From the NCBI RefSeq assembly GCF_014522265.1, contig NZ_CP017024.1, positions 310,001-374,000 of the forward strand: DNA of 64,000 nucleotides, read 5' to 3'. This document shows positions 43,741 to 61,254 of the stretch, one piece after another. Each line of letters opens with the position of its first letter. Position 1 is the stretch's first letter. This stretch comes from Pseudomonas oryzihabitans. Lineage in GTDB: Bacteria > Pseudomonadota > Gammaproteobacteria > Pseudomonadales > Pseudomonadaceae. The translations under genes were made by a program, and so were the position numbers. A model generated the notes under the pieces. The model did not search any database. It was not told the origin of the DNA and saw nothing but the letters and a program-made list of their open reading frames with translations.

Positions 43741-45150
43741 TTAGCGAATCTCCGGCAGCAGCAGCGCTGGCAACTGCGCCAGAAAGGCGGCTTCGTCGTC
43801 GAGCTGGCGCAAATCCAGCCAGAGCGCATCGGCGTCGATGCGCCCCACCACCGGAATGGGTAGCTGGCGCAGGCCCTCTTCCAACTGCCGCAGGGCGCGC
43901 CCACGCAGGCGCTTGCTGACCTGGGGACGACAGCACAGCGCCGCCCCGGGCAGCCGTGCCACCGGCTGGGCGCCACTGCCGATCATGCCCAGCGCCGGCT
44001 CCACGCTGACCGCATAGGTCGCGCCCAGCACGGCGGCGAAGGCCGGCAGCAGCCGCTCGGCCTGGGTGGTGATGGCCTCGGCCGGGCGGGATAGCAGGCG
44101 CAGGCTGGGCAACCGTTCGGCCAGTCGATCCGGATCGCGATAGAGCGCCAGGGTCGCTTCCAGGGCGGCCAGGGTCAGCTTGTCGACCCGCAACGCCCGC
44201 TTGAGCGGATTCTTCTTGATCCGCTCGATGAGGTCACGGCGACCGACGATGAGGCCGCACTGCGGGCCGCCGAGCAGCTTGTCGCCACTGAAGGTCACCA
44301 GGTCCGCGCCATCGCGCAGCGCCTGTTGCACCGTGGGCTCGGCGGGCAGCCCCCAACGGGTCAGGTCAACCAGGGTGCCGCTGCCGAGGTCTTCCAGCAG
44401 GGGGACGTTATGGGCGCGGGCAATGGCGGCCAGCTCCGTCGTGGCCACGCTGGCGGTAAAGCCCTGGACGCTGTAGTTGCTGGTGTGCACCCGCATCAGC
44501 AGCGCGGTACGCGGGCCGATGGCGGCTTCGTAGTCGCGGGCATGGGTGCGGTTGGTGGTGCCCACCTCCACCAGCTTGACCCCGGCGCGGGCCATGATGT
44601 CGGGGATGCGAAAGGCACCGCCGATCTCGATCAGCTCGCCGCGGGACAGCACCCCTTCCTTGCGTGCGCCTATGGCATGCAGGGCCAGCAGAACGGCCGC
44701 GGCGTTGTTGTTGACCACGGTCACCGCCTCGGCGCCGGTGAGTTCGCGCACCAGGTCGGCGACCAGGTCGTCGCGATCGCCGCGCTTGCCGGTGGTTAGA
44801 TCGAATTCCAGATTCATCGGCTGACGCGCGGCCTCGGTCACCGCGGCGATCGCCTCTTCCGCCAGCAGCGCCCGTCCCAGGTTGGTGTGCAGCACCGTGC
44901 CGGTGAGATTGAACACCCGCCGCACCCGCGGCTGGCTATGCAACGCCAGGCGCTCGCCCAGGCGACCGGCCAGCACGCCCTCCTCCACCTCCACGGCGGT
45001 CAGGGTGCCGGCTCTCAGGGCGTCGCGCAGATCGTCCAGCAGCGAACGATAGCCGCCAAGGACCAGCTCGCGACCGTGGCGCTCCTCCAGCGGACGCGAA
45101 GCGGGATGGCGCAGCAGGCGGTCGATGGACGGCAGGCGAATGGCGGTCAT
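43741..45150 (-). CDS. selA: L-seryl-tRNA(Sec) selenium transferase SelA
   Basis: SelA converts seryl-tRNA(Sec) to selenocysteyl-tRNA(Sec) using selenophosphate. The 469-residue PLP enzyme has the cofactor Lys K291 in [13 protein letters not shown], and family motifs [19 protein letters not shown] and [12 protein letters not shown]. It supplies the Sec inserted in FdnG, encoded 13 kb away. Usually selB follows selA and both adjoin the fdn operon; here selA stands alone and selB is absent from the window. Confidence 0.96.
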
Positions 45151-46518: not shown

Positions 46519-46675
46519 GAGCCGCTTATAAAACTACTGCGCGTCCGCCATACAGGCACGTGCGGTGCTCGGAATCCTCATGTACTACTCGTACACTCGT
46601 ACGCGAGCCCGGTCCGGCTCCTGCGCGCCGCACACACCTGTCTGACAACCGCTCGCGACGTTTTATAACCGACTC
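46519..46675 (+). repeat. Palindromic intergenic repeat, copy D
   Basis: A 157-base diverged copy that starts at the base after the lipase TGA. Outer arms are GAGCCGCTTATAAAAC and GTTTTATAACCGACTC. The core reads AATCCTCATGTAC-TACTC-GTACACTCG: both bases of one pair differ from the other copies (T-A to G-C), so the palindrome is kept. The GCGAGCCCGGTCCG stretch is shared with copies A and C. Confidence 0.85.
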
Positions 46676-46793
46676 GCGCTTTTGCGGCGGCCTTGTTTCG
46701 CCGCCGCGACAGAACTCCCCCCTGCCATTCGGGTCTGCCCTCCTATCGTCCGGGATCCCGAGGGTCCCGCCCGCCTTAGTCCAGGAGAGCACA

Positions 46794-47318
46794 ATGACCG
46801 CAGACGGTCCCCAGCGCATGACCGATGAAGAAGCCCAGGAATTCGCCACCGAGGTGTTCAACCTCGCGCGCACCGGCAATGCCGCGGTGCTGGCCCTGGT
46901 GCTGGAGAAGGGGCTGACCCCCAATCTGCGCAATCACAAGGGCGACAGCCTGCTGATGCTGGCCAGCTACCACGGCCACCTGGAGGCCAGCCGTGTCCTG
47001 CTGGAGCACCGGGCCGATTCGAATCTGGCCAACGACATGGGCCAGTCGCCCCTGGCCGGCGCGGCCTTCAAGAACAACCTGCCGATGGCCGAACTGCTGC
47101 TGGAGCACGGCGCCGCCGTGGAGGGCGCCATGCCCGACGGCAAGACCGCGCTGATGATGGCGGCCATGTTCAACCACGTGCAGATGGTGGAACTGCTGGT
47201 CGCCCGCGGTGCCGATCCCAAGGCCCGGGACGCCGCCGGCAACACGGCGCTGAGCGTGGCCCGCGCCATGGGCGCCAAGGATACCCCTGCCGTGCTGGAG
47301 CGGCTGGGCGGCGTCTGA
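46794..47318 (+). CDS. Ankyrin-repeat protein
   Basis: A 174-residue soluble protein with about four ankyrin repeats: residues about 35-60 (TPNLRNHKGDSLLMLASYHGH), 68-95, 100-130 and 135-160 (GADPKARDAAGNTALSVAR). Ankyrin repeats bind partner proteins. There is no signal peptide. It lies 275 bases after the lipase gene on the same strand, with repeat D between them and repeat E after it. Bacterial ankyrin proteins next to a toxin-like enzyme can act as cognate inhibitors, but that is only a possibility here. The ATG at 46794 has AGGAGAG upstream. Confidence 0.85.
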   Translation: MTADGPQRMTDEEAQEFATEVFNLARTGNAAVLALVLEKGLTPNLRNHKGDSLLMLASYHGHLEASRVLLEHRADSNLANDMGQSPLAGAAFKNNLPMAELLLEHGAAVEGAMPDGKTALMMAAMFNHVQMVELLVARGADPKARDAAGNTALSVARAMGAKDTPAVLERLGGV

Positions 47319-47321
47319 TCA

Positions 47322-47461
47322 GAGCCTATTCAAAGGCTCGCGAGCTAGAGACAAACAAGGCGAAAAAGCCTGAGGAAGCGGAGTTTACGAGTGGTAAATG
47401 AGCATTCCGAAGGCATTTTCAACGCGGTTTGGCCGACGCGCAGCAGACTTTGAACAGGCTC
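47322..47461 (-). repeat. Palindromic intergenic repeat, copy E (inverted)
   Basis: A 140-base element closely related to copies B and C but in the opposite orientation. Arms are GAGCCTATTCAAAGGCTC on the left and AGACTTTGAACAGGCTC on the right. The core on this strand reads GAGTTTAC-GAGTG-GTAAATGAGCATTCC. It begins 4 bases after the ankyrin stop and ends directly against the stop of the SdiA-regulated-type gene. Confidence 0.92.
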
Positions 47462-48385
47462 TTAGCGCTTCTGGTAGCGATAGAACAGGTTAGGCTCGCT
47501 GACCACATAGAGGTTACCGGCGGTATCCAGGGTGACGCCTTCGGGCTGGCGGATCCGCCGTGACAGGCCACCAAAGGGCGCCACCAGGGAACGGGTATCC
47601 AGGGTATGGCCCTGGTCGTCGAGTTCGATCAGCACCCGCGATTCGTCGCTGAGCAGCAGCAGGTGGCCGGTGCGGCGATCGACATGGACCGCGGACAGGT
47701 CACCGGTGCTGGGCGCCTGGTCCAGCCAGGCCTGGCGATCAATGATGCGCAGGGCGAAGTCGCCGTCGAAGCTCCTGAGCAGGCCACGGATTTCATAGAG
47801 CTTGCGCGGCGAGTGCTCCTTGACCACGAACAGGCGATCGCGGGCGGCATCGTAGTCCAGCCCCTCGAAGCCCTGGTTGGCGCGGGGGAAGAGATCCAGG
47901 GTCAGGCTGCGATAGTCCTTGCGGCGGAGCACGTCGTCGCCCTCGGGGATGCCTACCAGGGTCAGGGCGTTGGCGCCCTCTTCCGCCAGCAGCAGGCGGT
48001 CGCCTCCCAGATAGGTCACGCCTTCGACGTCGTCGAAGCCCTCCAGGCGATGGCGTTGCAGCAGCTCGCCGTCCCGGCTCAGGGCCAGCAACTCCGGCGG
48101 ATTGTTGACCACCGCCCAGAGGCGATCCCGCTCCGGGTCATAGCTGAGGTCGGACAGATTCTCGCTGACGCCGGCCACCGGCTTGGCTTCCACCGCCACC
48201 CGGTAGCGACCGAGCTCCAGGGAGGTTCGGGGTTCGCTCTGCCACTGCTGGCCGAGCCAGAACAGCAATTGACTATCCAGATGGCTGCTGCGCAGACCCT
48301 GGGTCACTCCCAGTGCCAGCAGCAGCGCCAGGGCCAGCAGCCAGCCGGTCCGCCCAATCCTGATCCGTCGTACCCACGCCGTCAT
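47462..48385 (-). CDS. SdiA-regulated (YjiK-like) exported or membrane-anchored beta-propeller protein
   Basis: A 307-residue protein with one N-terminal membrane helix (about 12-30) and a beta-propeller-like domain facing the periplasm. VSENLSDLSYDPERDRLWAV, FDDVEGVTYLGGDRLLLAEE and GFEGLDYDAARDRLFVVKE are typical of the SdiA-regulated domain family. Function is poorly known. It starts 67 bases after the peptide synthetase stop on the same strand. An IR GCCCCGT/ACGGGGC (48392-48414) lies just before its ribosome site. Confidence 0.83.
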   Translation of the reverse strand: MTAWVRRIRIGRTGWLLALALLLALGVTQGLRSSHLDSQLLFWLGQQWQSEPRTSLELGRYRVAVEAKPVAGVSENLSDLSYDPERDRLWAVVNNPPELLALSRDGELLQRHRLEGFDDVEGVTYLGGDRLLLAEEGANALTLVGIPEGDDVLRRKDYRSLTLDLFPRANQGFEGLDYDAARDRLFVVKEHSPRKLYEIRGLLRSFDGDFALRIIDRQAWLDQAPSTGDLSAVHVDRRTGHLLLLSDESRVLIELDDQGHTLDTRSLVAPFGGLSRRIRQPEGVTLDTAGNLYVVSEPNLFYRYQKR

Positions 48386-48452
48386 CGCCTTGCCCCGTCA
48401 TTGTTGTACGGGGCGGAGTATCCGGGGCTGTCTTTATGGTTGTGTGACAGTC

Positions 48453-51400
48453 CTAGCGCCGGGGCTGAACGGGGTTACCCTCCCAGCGCGAGCGACCCGG
48501 CAAGGTTTCGCCCTTCATCACCAGCGACAGCGGACCCAGTTCCACGTCGTCGCCGACGCGGGCGCCATAGAGCACCACGCTGCGCGGCCCCAGGTTGACC
48601 CCGGCTCCCAGCTCGACTTCGCCCACCTTCATCACCCGGTCTTCGAACAGGTGGGTCTGGGGCCCGGCCAATGCATTGAGTTCGCCATGGTCACCGAGGC
48701 GCACGCAGTCGAATTCGGTGAGGTCGGTGGTATCCAGGTAGGTGCCGCGCCCCAGGCGGGCGCCGAGCAGGCGCAGCGCCAGCGGCAGCCAGGGCGTACC
48801 GCGCAGGGTGCCGAGCAGATTGGGCACCGCCAGGGTTTCGTAGAGGCTGGTGATGGCTTCGCTGCGCCAGACGAAGAAGGTCCACATGGGCGCCGAGCGC
48901 GGGCGATAACGACCGACCACCAGCCACTTGAGTCCCAGCACCACCAGGAAGCTGGCCAGGGCGAAGGCGCTGCCGGCCAGCAGGGTCTCGCCGAGCAGTT
49001 GCAGCCAGGCGCCGGCCTGCCACAGCGGCACCAGGGCTTCGGCGATGGCGCAGCCGGCGGCGACGGTGAAGCCGGTGGGCAGCACGATGCGCAGGGCCTC
49101 GATCAGGCCACGCGCCACCCGGCGCCAAGGTGCCGGGCGGAAGGTCAGGCTTTCCGGGTAGCCGGTCAGGGTCTCCCGCGCCGGCAGCCGGACCGCCGGC
49201 GAGCCGAGCCAGGTTTCGCCCTGGCGCAGGGGCACGCCTTCGTCGAGCCGCCCCAGGACACCGATCAGGGCGTCTTCGGGGAGGTGGCAGCCGTCGGCGA
49301 CATAGGCGCCGTTGCCGACGAAACTGCGGCGGGCGATGGAGGTGCGTCTGAGGGTCATCCAGCCCTGGGCCACCTGTTCGTCACCGAGCATCACGGCATC
49401 GGCGATAAAGGTCTCGGCGCCCAGTTCCAGCAGCGAGGAGACCGGGCCCTGGGCGGTGGAGATCTCGGCATCACGGCCGACCCGGGCACCCAGCAGGCGA
49501 TACCAGAGCGCCGAATAAACGGTGGCATAGAGGCCCTGCAGACTCTGCAGCGCCGACTCCTGGATCAGGTTGGCCAGCCACTTGCGCCAGTAGAAGAGGC
49601 TGTCGATCGACCACTGGCCTTCTTCCAGCCGCGGCAGGATCAACCGCCGTGCCAGGGCGCAGCCAAGCAGGGTCAGGGCGACGCTGACCATGCCCAGCGG
49701 CAGGGCCAGTACGCCGTATTGCAGGGCATCGAGCAGCAGCGAAGAGGTGTGCCACCAGGGCAGCCCACCGAAGCTTTCCAGTTCGTCGATCAGCAGCGCC
49801 AGGGGAAACAGCGGCATGAAGAACAGCACCGAGACCACCAGGCCACTGAGGGCATAGAGCCCTTTCAGCACGGCACGCTGGGCGCGGGATACCGGAGCCG
49901 GCGGCAGGACGCGGGCACCGGCGGCGCCCTGGTCATGGGCCGGCGCGCCGCCCCAGTTGCGTCCGGCCGGGATGCGCTGGCCGCTGCGCAGGGCGGATTG
50001 GGCCTGCAGGCGCGCACCGTCACCGAGGGCGGTGTCGCCTTCGAGGATGGCATAGGAGCCGACCTGGGCTTCGCGACCCAGGGTCACGGCGCCGAGCAGC
50101 AGTTCGCCGCGCAGCACCCGGGCGTTTTCGAAGTTGACGCCGTTGCCCAGGCTGGCGCCCTGCCCCAGGGTCAGCAACTCGGGGACGCGCAGGGTCAGGG
50201 TGCCGACGAAGGCCTCGGCGCCGACCTGGGCGCCCAGCAGCCGTAGCCAGCCACGGGCCAGGGGCGAACCGCTGAGCAGGTAGGCCGGCGCCAGGGCGAG
50301 GAAGCGCTCACCCAGCCACCAGCGATAATAGGTCAGGCCCCACAGCGGATAGCGACCGGGCTGCAGGCGACCGGTCAGACGCTTGCCCAGCAGAGCCACG
50401 GCGAATTCCAGGCCGATGGCCAGAACGAACAGACTCAGGGCGGTCAGCATGGCCAAGGGCAGCGCGGTACCGGAATGGATCAGCAGCGGAAAGGCCAGGA
50501 AGGGTGCCAGCCAGCGGCCCAGGCGCAGGGTCAGGAGCGGCGGCAGGGCCACCGCCTGGGCCAGGCCACAGCGCCAGCGTCGCCAGCGGCTGGGCGGCGC
50601 CCAGGCCTCGGTGGCCGTCGCCGTGCCCGCCTCGGCGGCATCCGCCTCCAGGGCGTCGGCAATGGCGCCCAGGGTGCGGCCGGCATAGACCGCCTTGACC
50701 GTGGCGCTGGCATAGCGCGGGTCCTGGCGCAGGCGCGAGACCAGGCGGGCGGCGAACAGCGAGTGCCCGCCCAAGTCGTCGAAGAAATCCATCTCGGCGT
50801 GCAGGGGCTGACCGGGAAACAGCTCGGCGGTGGCCGCCAGCAGCGCACCCAGGGCGCCACTGGCCGGAGTGACCGGCGCCACTACGGCAATGGCCAGGGG
50901 CCGAGCTCGCAGTTGCTTGCGGTCGATCTTGCCGGAGTTCAGCCGCGGCATCTCGCCGAGCCACTCGAAGCGACTGGGCACCATGTACAGCGGCAGGCAG
51001 CCGGCCAGCTCGGTCCGCAGCAGGTCGCTGCGCGGCAGCGGACCGCCATCGCCGACCAGGAAGGCCACCAGCTGCTCCACGCCGCCTTCTTCGCGCAGCA
51101 CCACGGCCACGGTCCCGACGCCGGGTTGCCGCGCCAGGGTGGCTTCGATCTCGCCCAGCTCGACGCGATAGCCGCGGATCTTCACCTGGTCGTCGACCCG
51201 GCCCAGGCAATGCACCTGGCCGTGTTTGTCGACCCGTGCCAGGTCACCGGTGCGATAGAGCTTGAGGTCGTGGCTGCCGGTGCTCCAGGGATTGGGCAGG
51301 AATTTCTCGGCGGTCAGTTCGGGACGCCCCAGGTAGCCATCGGCCACGCCGGGACCGGTGATGCAGAGTTCACCCACCTGATCGCGTGGCAGCAGCGCCA

Positions 51401-52448
51401 GCGGCAGGCTGGCATCGGCGTGCACCACCAGCAGGCTGTAGTTGGGCAGCGGCCGGCCAATGGTCACCGGCTCGCCCGGTTGCAGTTGCGCCAGACTCGC
51501 CGAGACAGTGGCCTCACTCGGGCCATAGGTGTTGAACAGCCGCCGCTGCGGCCGACTCCAGCGCGCCACCAGGGGCTCGGGGCACATCTCGCCGCCGAGG
51601 TTGATCAGGCGCAGGCTGGGGACGTCTTCCGGCAACAGCGCCAGCAGGGTCGGCACCACGTGCAGCACGCTGATGCGATTGGCGGTCAGGGCGCGGGCCA
51701 GGGCCTCGGGGTCGGCGGTGATCTCCCGCGGCGCCAGCCAGAGGGTGGCGCCCACCAGGTAGCTGATCCAGATCTCTTCGAAGGACATGTCGAAGGCCAC
51801 CGAGAAACCCTGGTAGACCCGATCGCCGGCCTCGATGCCGAGCAGCGAATTCTCGCTGCGCAGGAAGTGACAGATGCTGTCCTGGCGGATGCCGATGCCC
51901 TTGGGCTTGCCGGTGGAGCCGGAGGTGTAGATCAGGTAGGCCAGGTGGTCCGGAGAGACCTGGCCACGCCGGCGCAGGGTCTCGCCCTGGGCCAGGCCGA
52001 CGCTCAGCTCGTCGGGGGTCCAGCAGCCGAGCCCGGGCCGCGCCAGCAGATCGGCGAAGGGCGCCCCGGTGATCACGCCCACCGCCTGGGCATCTTCCAG
52101 GCAGAGGGCCACGCGATCGGCCGGGGTTTCGGCGTCGCAGGGCAGCCAGGCGGCGCCGGTCTTGGCGATGGCCAGCTGCATCACCAGCAGCTCGATACCG
52201 CGTGGCAGCCAGAGGCCGACCACGCGGCCAGGCCCGGCACCGGCGGCCAGCAGCCGCGACGCGGCGCGGTCGGCCCAGGCGTTGAGTTCGCCATAGCTCA
52301 GGCTGCGCTCGCCTTCGAGCAGGGCGGGCCGCTCCGGCGCCCGCGCCGCGGTGGCCTCGAACAGATCGGCGAGGACTTCATCGCGGCACAGATCGGGGCG
52401 GATGGGGCCTTCGACCAGACTGAGGGAGAGTTCGGCAAGCGCTTCCAT
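48453..52448 (-). CDS. Pls/PosA-like membrane-bound nonribosomal peptide synthetase
   Basis: A 1331-residue protein. Residues 25-515 form an adenylation domain (YTSGSTGKPKG 174-184, GDLARVD, catalytic K507). Residues 530-605 are a carrier domain with the phosphopantetheine Ser S563 in LGGHSLF. Six membrane helices follow in three pairs (about 640-688, 861-933, 1116-1178). Each pair precedes a left-handed-helix hexapeptide-like domain (738-836, 986-1086, 1228-1325) opened by RLLGA. This A-T-(2TM-C)x3 layout matches epsilon-poly-lysine synthetase Pls. There is no condensation or thioesterase domain. The A-domain pocket reads D220, M221, E224, H263, I282, L284, T307, V315, S316, K507; the acidic E224 suggests a cationic amino acid. 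The product is unknown. Confidence 0.88.
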   Translation of the reverse strand: MEALAELSLSLVEGPIRPDLCRDEVLADLFEATAARAPERPALLEGERSLSYGELNAWADRAASRLLAAGAGPGRVVGLWLPRGIELLVMQLAIAKTGAAWLPCDAETPADRVALCLEDAQAVGVITGAPFADLLARPGLGCWTPDELSVGLAQGETLRRRGQVSPDHLAYLIYTSGSTGKPKGIGIRQDSICHFLRSENSLLGIEAGDRVYQGFSVAFDMSFEEIWISYLVGATLWLAPREITADPEALARALTANRISVLHVVPTLLALLPEDVPSLRLINLGGEMCPEPLVARWSRPQRRLFNTYGPSEATVSASLAQLQPGEPVTIGRPLPNYSLLVVHADASLPLALLPRDQVGELCITGPGVADGYLGRPELTAEKFLPNPWSTGSHDLKLYRTGDLARVDKHGQVHCLGRVDDQVKIRGYRVELGEIEATLARQPGVGTVAVVLREEGGVEQLVAFLVGDGGPLPRSDLLRTELAGCLPLYMVPSRFEWLGEMPRLNSGKIDRKQLRARPLAIAVVAPVTPASGALGALLAATAELFPGQPLHAEMDFFDDLGGHSLFAARLVSRLRQDPRYASATVKAVYAGRTLGAIADALEADAAEAGTATATEAWAPPSRWRRWRCGLAQAVALPPLLTLRLGRWLAPFLAFPLLIHSGTALPLAMLTALSLFVLAIGLEFAVALLGKRLTGRLQPGRYPLWGLTYYRWWLGERFLALAPAYLLSGSPLARGWLRLLGAQVGAEAFVGTLTLRVPELLTLGQGASLGNGVNFENARVLRGELLLGAVTLGREAQVGSYAILEGDTALGDGARLQAQSALRSGQRIPAGRNWGGAPAHDQGAAGARVLPPAPVSRAQRAVLKGLYALSGLVVSVLFFMPLFPLALLIDELESFGGLPWWHTSSLLLDALQYGVLALPLGMVSVALTLLGCALARRLILPRLEEGQWSIDSLFYWRKWLANLIQESALQSLQGLYATVYSALWYRLLGARVGRDAEISTAQGPVSSLLELGAETFIADAVMLGDEQVAQGWMTLRRTSIARRSFVGNGAYVADGCHLPEDALIGVLGRLDEGVPLRQGETWLGSPAVRLPARETLTGYPESLTFRPAPWRRVARGLIEALRIVLPTGFTVAAGCAIAEALVPLWQAGAWLQLLGETLLAGSAFALASFLVVLGLKWLVVGRYRPRSAPMWTFFVWRSEAITSLYETLAVPNLLGTLRGTPWLPLALRLLGARLGRGTYLDTTDLTEFDCVRLGDHGELNALAGPQTHLFEDRVMKVGEVELGAGVNLGPRSVVLYGARVGDDVELGPLSLVMKGETLPGRSRWEGNPVQPRR

Positions 52449-52631
52449 GGGGACAGCCTCTGGGTGTTTGGCGCAGTGTGTATCTCCCGGGTTACGCGCT
52501 CCTTAAGGGGCGCTTAGGGTTTGCTTAAGGCCGGACCAGCCCTGCGTCGCGGGCGCCAGAACGGCTCTGAAACGCGCCTTCCACTCGATCCGCCATTGAT
52601 CGGCGATGGACGGCGGTGCACTGGCGAGGCC

Positions 52632-52661
52632 AAAAAAAACGCCTCCCGAAGGAGGCGTTTT
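52632..52661 (-). terminator. Terminator of katG
   Basis: On the minus strand CGCCTCC, a TTCG tetraloop, GGAGGCG and then eight T residues form a textbook rho-independent terminator, 18 bases after the katG stop. Confidence 0.93.
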
Positions 52662-52678
52662 CAGCTACCGCTCGGCGA

Positions 52679-55434
<2,756 letters not shown>

Positions 55435-56352
55435 CTAGCCCGGGGCGAACAGCAGATTGGGCGCGTGGCGCTCGTAGCCTTCTTCCGCCAGGCGCACGTC
55501 CAGCGCCAGGCTGGCGAGATCGGCGGACAGGGGTTCGCTGCGGGCGTCGTGGTCGCGATAGAGGTGCTTGAGATAGGTCTTGCAGTGGGCGCAGGTCTCG
55601 GCGCGTAGCGGAGCCTTCTGGGCGTTGGCGTCGTCGGTGCTCAGGGAGTAGTAGCCCAGGCCCTTGCCCGTCTCGCAGTGGCTGCACTTGACCCGCACGA
55701 AGTGCCACTCGCAGGCGCACAGCGAGCAGGTGAGGTATCTCAGGCCATTGGCCTTGCCCAGGTGATGGATGATGCCGGCCATGGGCGGCGCACCGCAGCA
55801 GGGGCAGGACGTCTGACTACCCTGTTCGCGCAGGGCGCTGAAGTCACTGCGCTGCAGCCAGTGGGTCCAGGCCACCTGCAGGGCAGCGCCAAGAAAGGGC
55901 ACCACGCCAGCGGGCACCAGCTCGTAGCTGCCGGCCAGCAGGGCGATGGCCCAGGCCTTGCGCTGGCCGGCATCGGCCTGGCGCAGTTCGTCCAGGGCGG
56001 CCTGTACCGGCGCCTGCGCAAGCTTGAGGGTCTCCAGCAGGGCATCCAGCGCGGGCAACCAGTCCCCCTCGCGAACCAGGGTGTCGTAACCCAGGGGTGG
56101 CAGACCATGCTGCAGACTCTGGGCGCTGCGCGCCTCGTCCAGCGGCAGGGGGGCGAGACGGTCGAAGACCCCTTGCTGGGCTTCGCACAGGTCGGCCATC
56201 AGCAGCAGGTAGTCACTCAGCGCATTGCCGGCGGCCAGCAGGCGCAGGCGGTCGGCGCGATAGCCGAACAGCTCGCCACCGGGCAGCAGGATGAAATCGG
56301 GATTGACGGCCGCGGCTTCGATTTCGCCGGGCTCGAGGATCTGGCCCGCCAT
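55435..56352 (-). CDS. fdhE: Formate dehydrogenase accessory protein FdhE
   Basis: FdhE is a cytoplasmic rubredoxin-like factor needed for active respiratory formate dehydrogenase. The 305-residue product has the four CxxC motifs of the family: CPCCGAPP, CSLCACEW, CSHCETGK and CAHCKTYLKHLYRD. The ATG at 56352 was chosen because AAGGAG lies 7 bases upstream; an alternative ATG at 56370 would add six residues. It follows fdnI across a gap of about 190 bases with two repeat elements. Confidence 0.94.
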   Translation of the reverse strand: MAGQILEPGEIEAAAVNPDFILLPGGELFGYRADRLRLLAAGNALSDYLLLMADLCEAQQGVFDRLAPLPLDEARSAQSLQHGLPPLGYDTLVREGDWLPALDALLETLKLAQAPVQAALDELRQADAGQRKAWAIALLAGSYELVPAGVVPFLGAALQVAWTHWLQRSDFSALREQGSQTSCPCCGAPPMAGIIHHLGKANGLRYLTCSLCACEWHFVRVKCSHCETGKGLGYYSLSTDDANAQKAPLRAETCAHCKTYLKHLYRDHDARSEPLSADLASLALDVRLAEEGYERHAPNLLFAPG

Positions 56353-56426
56353 GGCAGGGCTCCTTAGCAAAACGGTGGAAGATGGAGGATTCAGGATAGC
56401 GGGCGGGTTGGGATGATGGGCACCCT

Positions 56427-57214: not shown

Positions 57215-58174
57215 CTAGGGCTGCTTGTCGTGCGGATCGAAGATCTGCACGGACGGACTCAGCTGCTTGACCTCGCCCCTGGGCGCATCGCCCTCGGGAC
57301 GAGGCGGCGCCTCGACCACCTCGTCGTCGTCATCGGTCCGGTTCGGGCCGACGCGCACGTAGTGGAAGAAACCGGCCAGCACCGCCGCGCCCATGGCAAA
57401 CAGCGCCAGGGGTTTGGTGAAGCCCTTCCACAGGCCCACGGTGGGGCTGATGGTCGGGTCCTTGGGCAGGTGGTTGTACAGCTGCGGCTGGTCGGCATGG
57501 TGCAGCACGTACATGACGTGGGTGCCCCCTACCCCAACCGGGTCGTACAGCCCGGCGTTCTCGTAGCCGCGGCTCTTGAGATCGACGATGCGCTCGGCGG
57601 CGTGCTCCTTCATGGCGTCCTTGGTACCGAAGACGATGGCGCCGGTCGGGCAGGTCTTCACGCAGGCCGGCTCCAGGCCGACCCCGACCCGGTCCGAACA
57701 CAGCGAGCACTTGTAGGCCTTGTTGTCCTTCTTCGAGATCCGCGGGATATCGAAGGGGCAACCGGCGATGCAGTAGCCGCAACCGATGCAGTGGTCCTGG
57801 TTGAAGTCGACGATGCCGTTGGCGTACTTGACGATGGCCCCCGGACTCGGACAGGCCTTCAGGCAACCCGGCTCGGCGCAGTGCATGCAGCCGTCCTTGC
57901 GGATCAGCCACTCCAGCTTGCCGGCCTCGTCCTCGTGCTCGGTGAAGCGCATCAGCGTCCAGGAGTCCGCGGTGAGGTCCGCCGGGTTGTCGTAGGTGCC
58001 GTGGGTGTGGCCCACCTCGTCGCGCAACTCGTTCCATTCCGAACAGGCGACCTGGCAGGCCTTGCAACCGATGCACTTGGACACATCGATCAGCTTGGCC
58101 ACTTCCGCCTGGGTGCGCACCGACGTATAGGCCGTGGTGGTCGCGGAGCGGGCGTAGATATCTTGGCTTGCCAT
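57215..58174 (-). CDS. fdnH: Formate dehydrogenase iron-sulfur subunit
   Basis: The 319-residue periplasm-facing electron-transfer subunit carries four 4Fe-4S ferredoxin motifs: [45 protein letters not shown] and CSLCSDR paired with [12 protein letters not shown]-terminal membrane helix (about residues 255-280) anchors it. There is no own signal peptide; it should be co-exported with FdnG by Tat. The ATG at 58174 shares one base with the fdnG stop (TGATG). Confidence 0.96.
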
Positions 58175-61100
58175 CACGCTTTCTCCACGTTGACGAGGAA
58201 CGACTTGAACTCGGGCGTCTGGGTGTTCCCGTCACCCACGAAGGGGGTCAGGGTGTTGGCCAGGTAACCCATCCGCGCCACGCCGGAGAAACCCCAGTGG
58301 ATGGGGATGCCGACGTGGTGCACCGTCTCGCCGTTGACCTGCAGCGGACGGATCCGCTTGGTCACCACCGCCTTGCAGACGATGTGGCCGCGCTTGGAGG
58401 TGACGCGCACGAGATCACCCGCGGCGATGCCCTTCTGCTTGGCCAGCACCTCGCCGATCTCGACGAACTGCTCCGGCTGGATGATGGCGTTGAGACGGCA
58501 GTGCTTGCTCCAGTAGTGGAAGTGCTCGGTCAGGCGGTAGGTGGTGGCCGCATAGGGGAAGTCCTTGCGATCGCCGAAGTCCGCCCAGTCGTCCTTGAGC
58601 ACCCGCGCCGCCGGGCTGTTGAGCGCCTTGCGGTTGTTGGGGTGCAGCGGGTTGACACCGATGGGCGTCTCGAACGGCTCGTAGTGTTCCGGGAAGGGCC
58701 CCTCGGCCATCTTGTCCAGGGCGAAGAAACGCGCCACCCCTTCCGGGTTCATGATGAAGGGACTCATGCCGTCGGCCGGCTTGGCGTCGATCTTGTAGTC
58801 GGGCACATCGGTGCCGCCCCACTTCTGCGCCTTGTCGTTCCACCACACCAGCTTCTTGCTCGGGTCCCAGGGCTTACCGTTGAGGTCCGAGGAGGCGCGG
58901 TTGTAGAGGATGCGTCTGTTGTTCGGCCACGACCACGCCCAGCCCAGGGTCTGCCCCATATGGAACGGATCGCTGTTGTCGCGCCGCGCCATCTGGTTGC
59001 CCTGCTCGGTCCAGGCGCCGCAGAAGATCCAACAACCCGAGGCGGTGCTGCCGTCGTCCATCAACTGGCCGAAGCCGGCGAGTTGCTGACCGGCCTTGGC
59101 CGAGACCGCGCCCTTGGCATCCAGCACATCGGTGACGGCGTAGCCGTTGAACTCCTTGGCGAGTTCTTCCGGCGCCGGCTCCTCGGGCTTGGCGTAGGGC
59201 CAGGACAGCCCCAGGATCGGATCGGGGAAGGCCCCGCCATCCTTCGCATAGGCCTCGCGCAGCTTGAGGAACAGCTCGGACATGATGGCGATGTCGCTGC
59301 GCCCTTCGCCGGGTGCCTCGGCGCCCTTGAAGTGCCACTGCAGCCAGCGGCTGGAGTTGACCAGGGAGCCGTCTTCCTCGGCGAAGCAGGTGGTGGGCAG
59401 GCGGAACACCTCGGTCTGGATCTCGGCGGTGTTCACATCGTTGTGCTCGCCGTGGTTGCGCCAGAACTCGGAGGTCTCGGTGGCCAGCGGGTCCATGATC
59501 ACCAGCCACTTGAGCTTGGACAGCCCGCGCATCACCTTGGCCTTGTTGGGGAAGGCGGCGATGGGGTTGAAGCCCTGGCAGACATAGCCGTTGACCTGGC
59601 CCTTGCCCATCATGTCGAAGTAGCGCAGGACGTCGTAGCCGGCACCGGTGACATCGACCTTGGGCAACCAGTGGTAGCACCAGTCGTTGTCCTTGGTGGC
59701 CTTGTCGCCGTACCAGGCCTTCATCAGGCTGACGTGGAACTTGCCGTAGTTCTGCCAGTAGCTCATCTGCCCCGGACGCAGCGGTTTGCTGGCGCGGCGG
59801 GCGATGAAGGCGTTGTAGTCCTGCTCGCCGTCGCCGCCGATGGTCAGGTAGCCGGGCAGCTGGATCGACAGCAGGCCCAGGTCGGTGAGGCCCTGGATGT
59901 TGGAGTGACCGCGCAGGGCGTTCATGCCGCCACCCGGCAGGCCGATGTTGCCCAGCAGCAGCTGAACCATGGCGCCGCAGCGGATGATCTGTGCCCCGAT
60001 GGAGTGCTGGGTCCAGCCCAGGGCATAGAGGATGGTCATGACGCGACCGGGCGCCGAGGTCTCGGCGATTTCGGCCCAGACCTTCTGGATCGCGTCGGTC
60101 GGCGTGCCACAGGTCTGGCTGGCCACTTCCAGGGTGTAGCGACTGTAGTGCTGCTTCATCAGCTGGAAGACGCAGCGCGGATCCTGCAGGGTCGGATCGA
60201 TCTTGACGAAGCCGTCGTCGCCGATCTGGTAGCCCCAGTTCACCTTGTCGGTGTAGGTGCGCTTCTCGGCGTCATAGCCGTTGTACAGGCCGTCCTCGAA
60301 GGTGAAGCCTTCCTTCACCAGGAAGCCGGCGTCGGTGTAGTTGCGGACGTACTCCTGCTGAATCTTGTCGTGGGTGATCAGGTAATTGATCAGCCCGCCG
60401 AGGAAGGCGATGTCGCTGCCGGTGCGGATCGGCGCGTAGTAATCCGCCACCGAGGCGGAACGGGTGAAACGCGGATCGACCACGATCAGCCGGGCGTTGT
60501 TGTGCGCCTTGGCCTCGGTGACCCATTTGAAGCCGCACGGATGGGCTTCAGCGGCATTGCCGCCCATGATGAGGACGAGATTGGCGTTCTTGATGTCGCT
60601 CCAATGATTCGTCATCGCTCCACGGCCAAACGTCGGGGCAAGACCTGCCACCGTCGGGCCGTGTCAAACGCGCGCCTGGTTGTCGAAGGCCAGCAGGCCC
60701 AGACTCCGTGCGATCTTGTGCGTCAGATAACCGGTTTCATTGGAGGACGCCGAGGCGGCCAGGAAGCCTGTGGTCAACCAGCGATTGACCGTCTGGCCCT
60801 TGTCGTTGGTGGCGATGAAGTTGGCATCGCGGTCTTCCTTCATCAGGGTAGCGATGCGCCCGAGCGCCTCGTCCCAGCTGATGCGGGTCCACTCGTTGCT
60901 GCCGGGCTTGCGGACTTCCGGGTACTTGAGGCGATTGGGGCTGTGGATGAAATCCAGCAGGCCGGCGCCCTTCGGGCAGAGGGTGCCGCGATTGACCGGA
61001 TGGTCGGCGTCGCCCTCGATGTGAATGATGTTCTGGGCCACGTTCTTGGCCCGGTCGCCCATGCTGTACATGATCAGGCCGCAGCCGACCGAGCAATAGG

Positions 61101-61254
61101 GACAGGTGTTGCGGGTTTCCACGGTGTGCGCCAGTTTGAAATGGCGCACCTGGTCGGCAAAGGCGGCTGTGGGAGCCATGCCTAACGCCGCCAGGCTGGA
61201 TCCCGCAAGGCCGACTCCAGCGACCTTGAAGAATTGCCGACGGTTCATATCCAC
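58174..61254 (-). CDS. fdnG: Selenocysteine-containing formate dehydrogenase catalytic subunit
   Basis: FdnG oxidises formate to CO2 at a molybdenum/tungsten bis-MGD centre in the periplasm. Translation from the GTG at 61254 (AGGA eight bases upstream; [10 protein letters not shown] start) gives a Tat signal with RRQFFK and a 4Fe-4S motif CPYCSVGC. It then meets an in-frame TGA at 60664-60666, codon 197. The reading continues as [20 protein letters not shown], the normal FdnG sequence, so UGA encodes selenocysteine. Full length is 1026 residues, as in known enzymes. A SECIS hairpin follows the codon. It is the first gene of fdnGHI-fdhE. The two halves should not be annotated as separate genes. 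Confidence 0.96.
60631..60666 (-). promoter_or_regulatory. Selenocysteine UGA and bacterial SECIS hairpin in fdnG
   Basis: The UGA is at 60666-60664 on the minus strand. The mRNA downstream can fold as GG, bulged U, GGCA, loop GGUCU, UGCC, CC (60652-60635). A short stem with a bulged U below a GGUCU loop is the architecture recognised by SelB in E. coli fdnG/fdhF. Confidence 0.92.

Follow-up and report, generated by a model that had tools for sequence, protein, structure and literature searches.

A 64,000-nucleotide stretch of the Pseudomonas oryzihabitans genome (contig NZ_CP017024.1, positions 310,001 to 374,000; hereafter the window) contains at 48453-52448, on the minus strand, a single open reading frame (ORF) of 1331 amino acids (aa) with an ATG start that is predicted, with a probability of roughly 0.85, to encode a membrane-bound, single-module δ-poly-L-ornithine synthetase. 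The gene is real and intact and belongs to a characterized family, that of the peptide synthetases Pls and PosA, within which it is a close relative, and probably an orthologue, of posA from Acinetobacter baumannii. L-Ornithine is the predicted substrate because the binding pocket is identical to that of PosA, which makes δ-poly-L-ornithine. In the literature found, the product has been demonstrated for one A. baumannii enzyme only, and the window gene offers a second, non-Acinetobacter candidate for checking both the product assignment and the role of the polymer.

Family membership, already proposed in an earlier interpretation of the same DNA (the sequence-only reading), was borne out by the NCBIfam model TIGR02353 (Pls/PosA), which scored 689.8 bits versus a cut-off of 423.1 and aligned residues 630-1327 with model positions 2-695 of 695. 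The likewise proposed layout of one adenylation (A) domain, one carrier (T) domain and three homologous C modules without condensation or release domain was recovered by Pfam and hhalign. The A domain spans residues 25-515 (50904-52376, minus strand as all parts of the gene; Pfam, TIGR01733), with AMP-binding at residues 30-373 (E 2e-71) and AMP-binding_C at 24.1 bits, slightly below its cut-off of 24.5. It is followed by the carrier domain (residues 535-605; 50634-50846), for which PP-binding matched marginally above cut-off at residues 537-600 and which holds the phosphopantetheine serine S563 in a GGHS motif. Hexapep was the fourth and last Pfam family matched at E <= 0.01, and condensation, thioesterase and reductase families were absent from the protein in the same scan. 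Modules C1 (residues 631-842; 49923-50558), C2 (residues 853-1092; 49173-49892) and C3 (residues 1106-1331; 48456-49133) were delimited by us on the basis of TIGR02353 and internal homology; they are mutually homologous, with E values of 1e-37 for C1/C2, 8e-34 for C1/C3 and 1e-24 for C2/C3. By a plain hydropathy scan, every module has a hydrophobic front portion (residues 650-692, 858-939 and 1118-1181). For PosA, the three modules have been modelled as one domain with left-handed β-helices, resembling sugar-nucleotide acyltransferases (PMC10522769). Chance origin of the reading frame is excluded, because all 80 loci taken as the best of 312 relatives match nearly over the full length, at about 55-98% identity.

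A phmmer search of the PDB for the nearest characterized homologue, as suggested by the sequence-only reading, returned the A domain of A. baumannii PosA as the closest structure (8g95, E 7.9e-159; 8g97, 3e-158), with linear gramicidin synthase A as the next enzyme (1.1e-143) and Pls (7wew, 8.9e-74) further down among the matches listed. Over 99% of its length, the window protein is 49% identical to the PosA homologue of A. baumannii VB958, and the value rises to 60% in the A domain, where 240 of 403 aligned residues of the core are identical. PosA from strain AB307 (PDB 8G95-8G98) was shown to produce δ-poly-L-ornithine of 7-12 units in vitro, with a kcat/KM for L-ornithine that exceeds the one for L-lysine by over 160-fold; its kinetics and contact mutants have been published, and D217, M218, E221, T304 and S313 are given as the ornithine contacts (PMC10522769).

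These five contacts correspond to D220, M221, E224, T307 and S316 in the window protein, the first three lying in the pocket core D220-M221-S-F-E224 (51777-51791; aligned to 8g95). In full, the pocket consists of D220, M221, E224, H263, I282, L284, T307, V315, S316 and K507, as the sequence-only reading had listed them and as the alignment confirmed, and all twelve compared positions equal those of the VB958 PosA. The apparent failure of these letters to match any nameable code is explained by a register difference within the common INLGG motif, from which the published PosA code DMEHNGTVSK (PMC10522769) takes N and G as its fifth and sixth letters, as opposed to I and L in DMEHILTVSK. The idea of an unnamed code was consequently rejected; after the register shift, the pocket is that of PosA. 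With both registers listed, DMEHINLGTVSK is found alike in the window protein and PosA. Nor does the former verdict of an unknown product hold, given that PosA with the same twelve positions makes δ-poly-L-ornithine (PMC10522769). The earlier reading of E224 as a pointer to a diamino substrate was right.

The pocket was further compared in an alignment of 91 sequences comprising the window protein, the above 80 loci, PosA and nine outgroups. This set leans to close relatives, and ten further loci of the same genus, which partly repeat included ones, lie outside it. One more locus (L100), translated in a wrong frame, was excluded from the counts and the tree. DMEHINLGTVSK is exact in 80 of the 91 sequences, the window protein and PosA among them, two more differ by an exchange of T to S, and the remaining nine are the outgroups with other pocket letters. 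Carrier S563 is kept in all 91. The pocket reads DAESLIVGTVVK in a Streptomyces protein annotated as Pls, DLEDIIVGTVVK in two Rhizobium sequences and DMEHINMGTVTK in a Sphingomonas homologue. Two further family members were recorded in passing. One, a protein from the phylum search (L110), has the pocket DVEAINAGTGSK, unlike the others in its alignment. The other is encoded on a plasmid of Streptomyces sp. NBC_01527 (L099:2917-9636), and has the pocket DFECLLLSAVTK. The genes after it carry annotations as a diaminobutyrate transaminase family member and an aspartate kinase; pocket and downstream annotations suggest a poly-diaminobutyrate product for this plasmid member.

That the window enzyme polymerizes a different cationic amino acid (lysine, diaminobutyrate, diaminopropionate or β-lysine), or makes a mixed polymer, is unlikely in view of a pocket identical to that of PosA. 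The position of M221, proposed to set the length, is described as Ala in lysine enzymes and Phe in poly-diaminopropionate (PDAP) and poly-diaminobutyrate (PDAB) synthetases, and no polymer was detected from lysine with PosA (PMC10522769). The window protein has Met at this position and the annotated Streptomyces Pls has Ala. Lysine, diaminobutyrate and diaminopropionate products were rejected, as the pocket differs.

With PosA, the window protein shares the full architecture, the twelve compared pocket positions and the clade: both fall into one 47-row clade with a support of 100 in a 56-row tree, which was built once by a quick method without bootstrap, and the Azospirillum/Rhizobium proteins, Streptomyces Pls, the Sphingomonas homologue and others fall outside. 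Pls, whose A-domain structure is 7WEW, has the same A-T-(C1-C2-C3) membrane layout and the QTHLF motif in C3, yet identity with the annotated Pls of Streptomyces sp. NBC_01454 amounts to 35% and the pocket there begins with DAES rather than DMEH. The Azospirillum and Rhizobium members of the family likewise have the same architecture and are 40-45% identical, but their pocket (DLED...V) departs from that of the window protein at M221, H263, S316 and other positions; DLEDIGTV(T/V/I)K is listed as a signature without assigned product in PMC10522769.

By analogy to PosA, from which ornithine activation, the δ-linkage and the length of 7-12 units are known and carried over here, and in line with the established logic of nonribosomal peptide synthetases, the A domain would activate L-ornithine with ATP, with D220 holding the α-amine, E224, T307 and S316 holding the δ-amine, and M221 acting as a limit on chain length. 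The activated ornithine would then be transferred to the phosphopantetheine arm of S563. This arm is presumably installed by a phosphopantetheinyl transferase from another locus of the host, whose genome encodes one PF01648 protein elsewhere. Subsequently, the three-module membrane domain would join the ornithyl thioester with the δ-amine of a free acceptor, i.e. ornithine and later the growing chain, to afford a short cationic isopeptide polymer that presumably acts outside the cell.

A candidate for the general base of this last step is H1266 (48651-48653) in the C3 motif QTHLFEDR. It is the sole invariant histidine of the C region of the window protein across the 91 aligned sequences, and in a second alignment of 22 sequences, one of which ends earlier, it is kept in all 21 that reach this position, including those with the most divergent C3 motifs. 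Acyltransferases of the left-handed β-helix fold commonly use histidine as a base. Since H1266 is invariant and such a base is common in this fold, C3 may carry the bond-forming center, with H1266 marking its site, and the place of bond formation becomes testable at one residue. Kito et al. (2013) reportedly studied mutants of the three Pls tandem domains and may already name C3 residues, so novelty is not claimed for H1266. According to PMC7179176, conserved tandem-domain residues are marked in that study. All three tandem domains of Pls are stated to be essential for bond formation (PMC4668381), which favors a joint catalytic unit.

Several observations weigh against the proposed assignment or its details. 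The C region is only about 45% identical to that of PosA, and the chain length is therefore possibly different. For the C3 proposal, conservation is the one line of evidence, and four sequences of the 22-sequence alignment have QAHSLEE in place of the motif, albeit with the histidine kept. The deep branches of the tree are long and flagged as unsure, the window protein belongs to a Pseudomonas branch outside the sub-branch of PosA, and the tree does not settle the order of these branches within the clade. Moreover, pocket and tree are partly discordant, since the Sphingomonas homologue, a distant one placed outside the clade, has a pocket nearly identical to that of the window protein.

The closest named relative of the protein stems from P. 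oryzihabitans YY7 (98% identity), which places the host in the P. oryzihabitans group. In a search of 57 genomes of relatives at E <= 1e-100, the gene was found in 10 of the 13 congeneric genomes, counting the host (5.05 Mb, single contig), and in none of the 44 other genomes of the family or order; among 150 genomes drawn across the phylum, ten, again with the host, held a family member above cut-off. The nearest relatives beyond the genus, among the best 80, are mostly Betaproteobacteria at about 55-61% identity, which would be compatible with the P. oryzihabitans lineage having acquired the gene by transfer from this class. When the three members of the genus that lack posA were searched by DNA match for an empty site, nothing beyond a 51-base piece turned up, in one of them, so that no insertion history can be read. 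A decayed or non-functional copy, for which the lack of a sigma-70-type promoter in a consensus scan of 47300-53000 could be cited (a weak point, as shuffles average 0.3), is barely conceivable: the frame is intact, the carrier serine and pocket residues are kept, and the ten posA-bearing genomes of the genus show the same full-length, stop-free frame.

Directly downstream on the same strand lies a gene for a 307-aa SdiA-regulated family protein (47462-48385, minus strand; Pfam SdiA-regulated, E 6.5e-85), and further downstream one for an ankyrin-repeat protein on the opposite strand (46560-47318, plus strand); katG, encoding a catalase-peroxidase, lies upstream (52679-54940, minus strand). 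The SdiA-regulated gene, a possible co-transcribed neighbor, adjoins posA in all ten posA-bearing genomes of the genus with a gap of roughly 70 to 220 base pairs (bp), and in the three members that lack posA all copies are more distant (35-41% identical). The host genome harbors two additional copies side by side at 2254684-2256490 (44% and 37% identical). SdiA-regulated proteins form a β-propeller family. No relative from 74 non-Pseudomonas loci joined the cluster of this protein when ORFs in flanks of up to 4.5 kb were clustered. It is a rather remote prospect that, in the P. oryzihabitans group, posA and the SdiA-regulated gene work together as one lineage-specific unit. The SdiA-regulated protein would then bind, process or anchor δ-poly-ornithine outside the inner membrane, and the polymer would serve as a surface or biofilm component beyond an antifungal role; adjacency and the absence of a close copy from the three members lacking posA could be explained by shared ancestry alone.

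The genomic setting also differs from those of the known enzymes. The SdiA-regulated gene begins about 70 bp downstream here, whereas A. baumannii posA, termed a single-gene operon (PMC10522769), is followed after about 460 bp by a gene for a hypothetical protein, which gave no Pfam match at E <= 0.01, and in Streptomyces sp. NBC_01454 the gene after pls encodes an M1 metallopeptidase. The idea that the gene sits in a conserved biosynthetic cluster was rejected, as only one neighbor cluster is widespread. This cluster, a protein of about 207 aa encoded directly downstream, occurs in 37 of the 80 loci (ORFs within 4.5 kb) and in none of the six Pseudomonas loci among them; the next largest of the 25 largest clusters listed covers nine loci. 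It is probably, though not certainly, a phosphopantetheinyl transferase: its representative scored 19.2 bits with PF01648, below the cut-off of 25, and the following gene at the Rhizobium and Sphingomonas homologue loci is annotated as such.

The neighborhood bears on a further alternative, namely that ornithine is activated but ends up in a capped, membrane-anchored or conjugated oligomer instead of a free homopolymer. Recombinant Pls is described as able to add glycerol or polyethylene glycol (PEG) esters to its product (PMC9606270), a GNAT acetyltransferase gene is next or next but one downstream in two homologue loci, and the window protein has no Pfam thioesterase domain. Such a product is nevertheless quite improbable, as PosA, whose pocket is the same, produced 7-12mers in vitro and the available text (PMC10522769) names no partner protein, and the genes adjoining the window gene encode the SdiA-regulated protein and the catalase-peroxidase, not a transferase.

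As a separate observation, the window contains a selenoprotein set. A gene named from its sequence as the formate dehydrogenase large subunit (58174-61254, minus strand) has an in-frame TGA that corresponds to U197 in RVUHGP, and the Rfam family SECIS_3 matched at this position with 84.4 bits (60611-60669, minus strand). SelA (43741-45150) and FdhE (55435-56370) are encoded in the same window; by these positions, the set is split around the posA-like, SdiA-regulated and katG genes.

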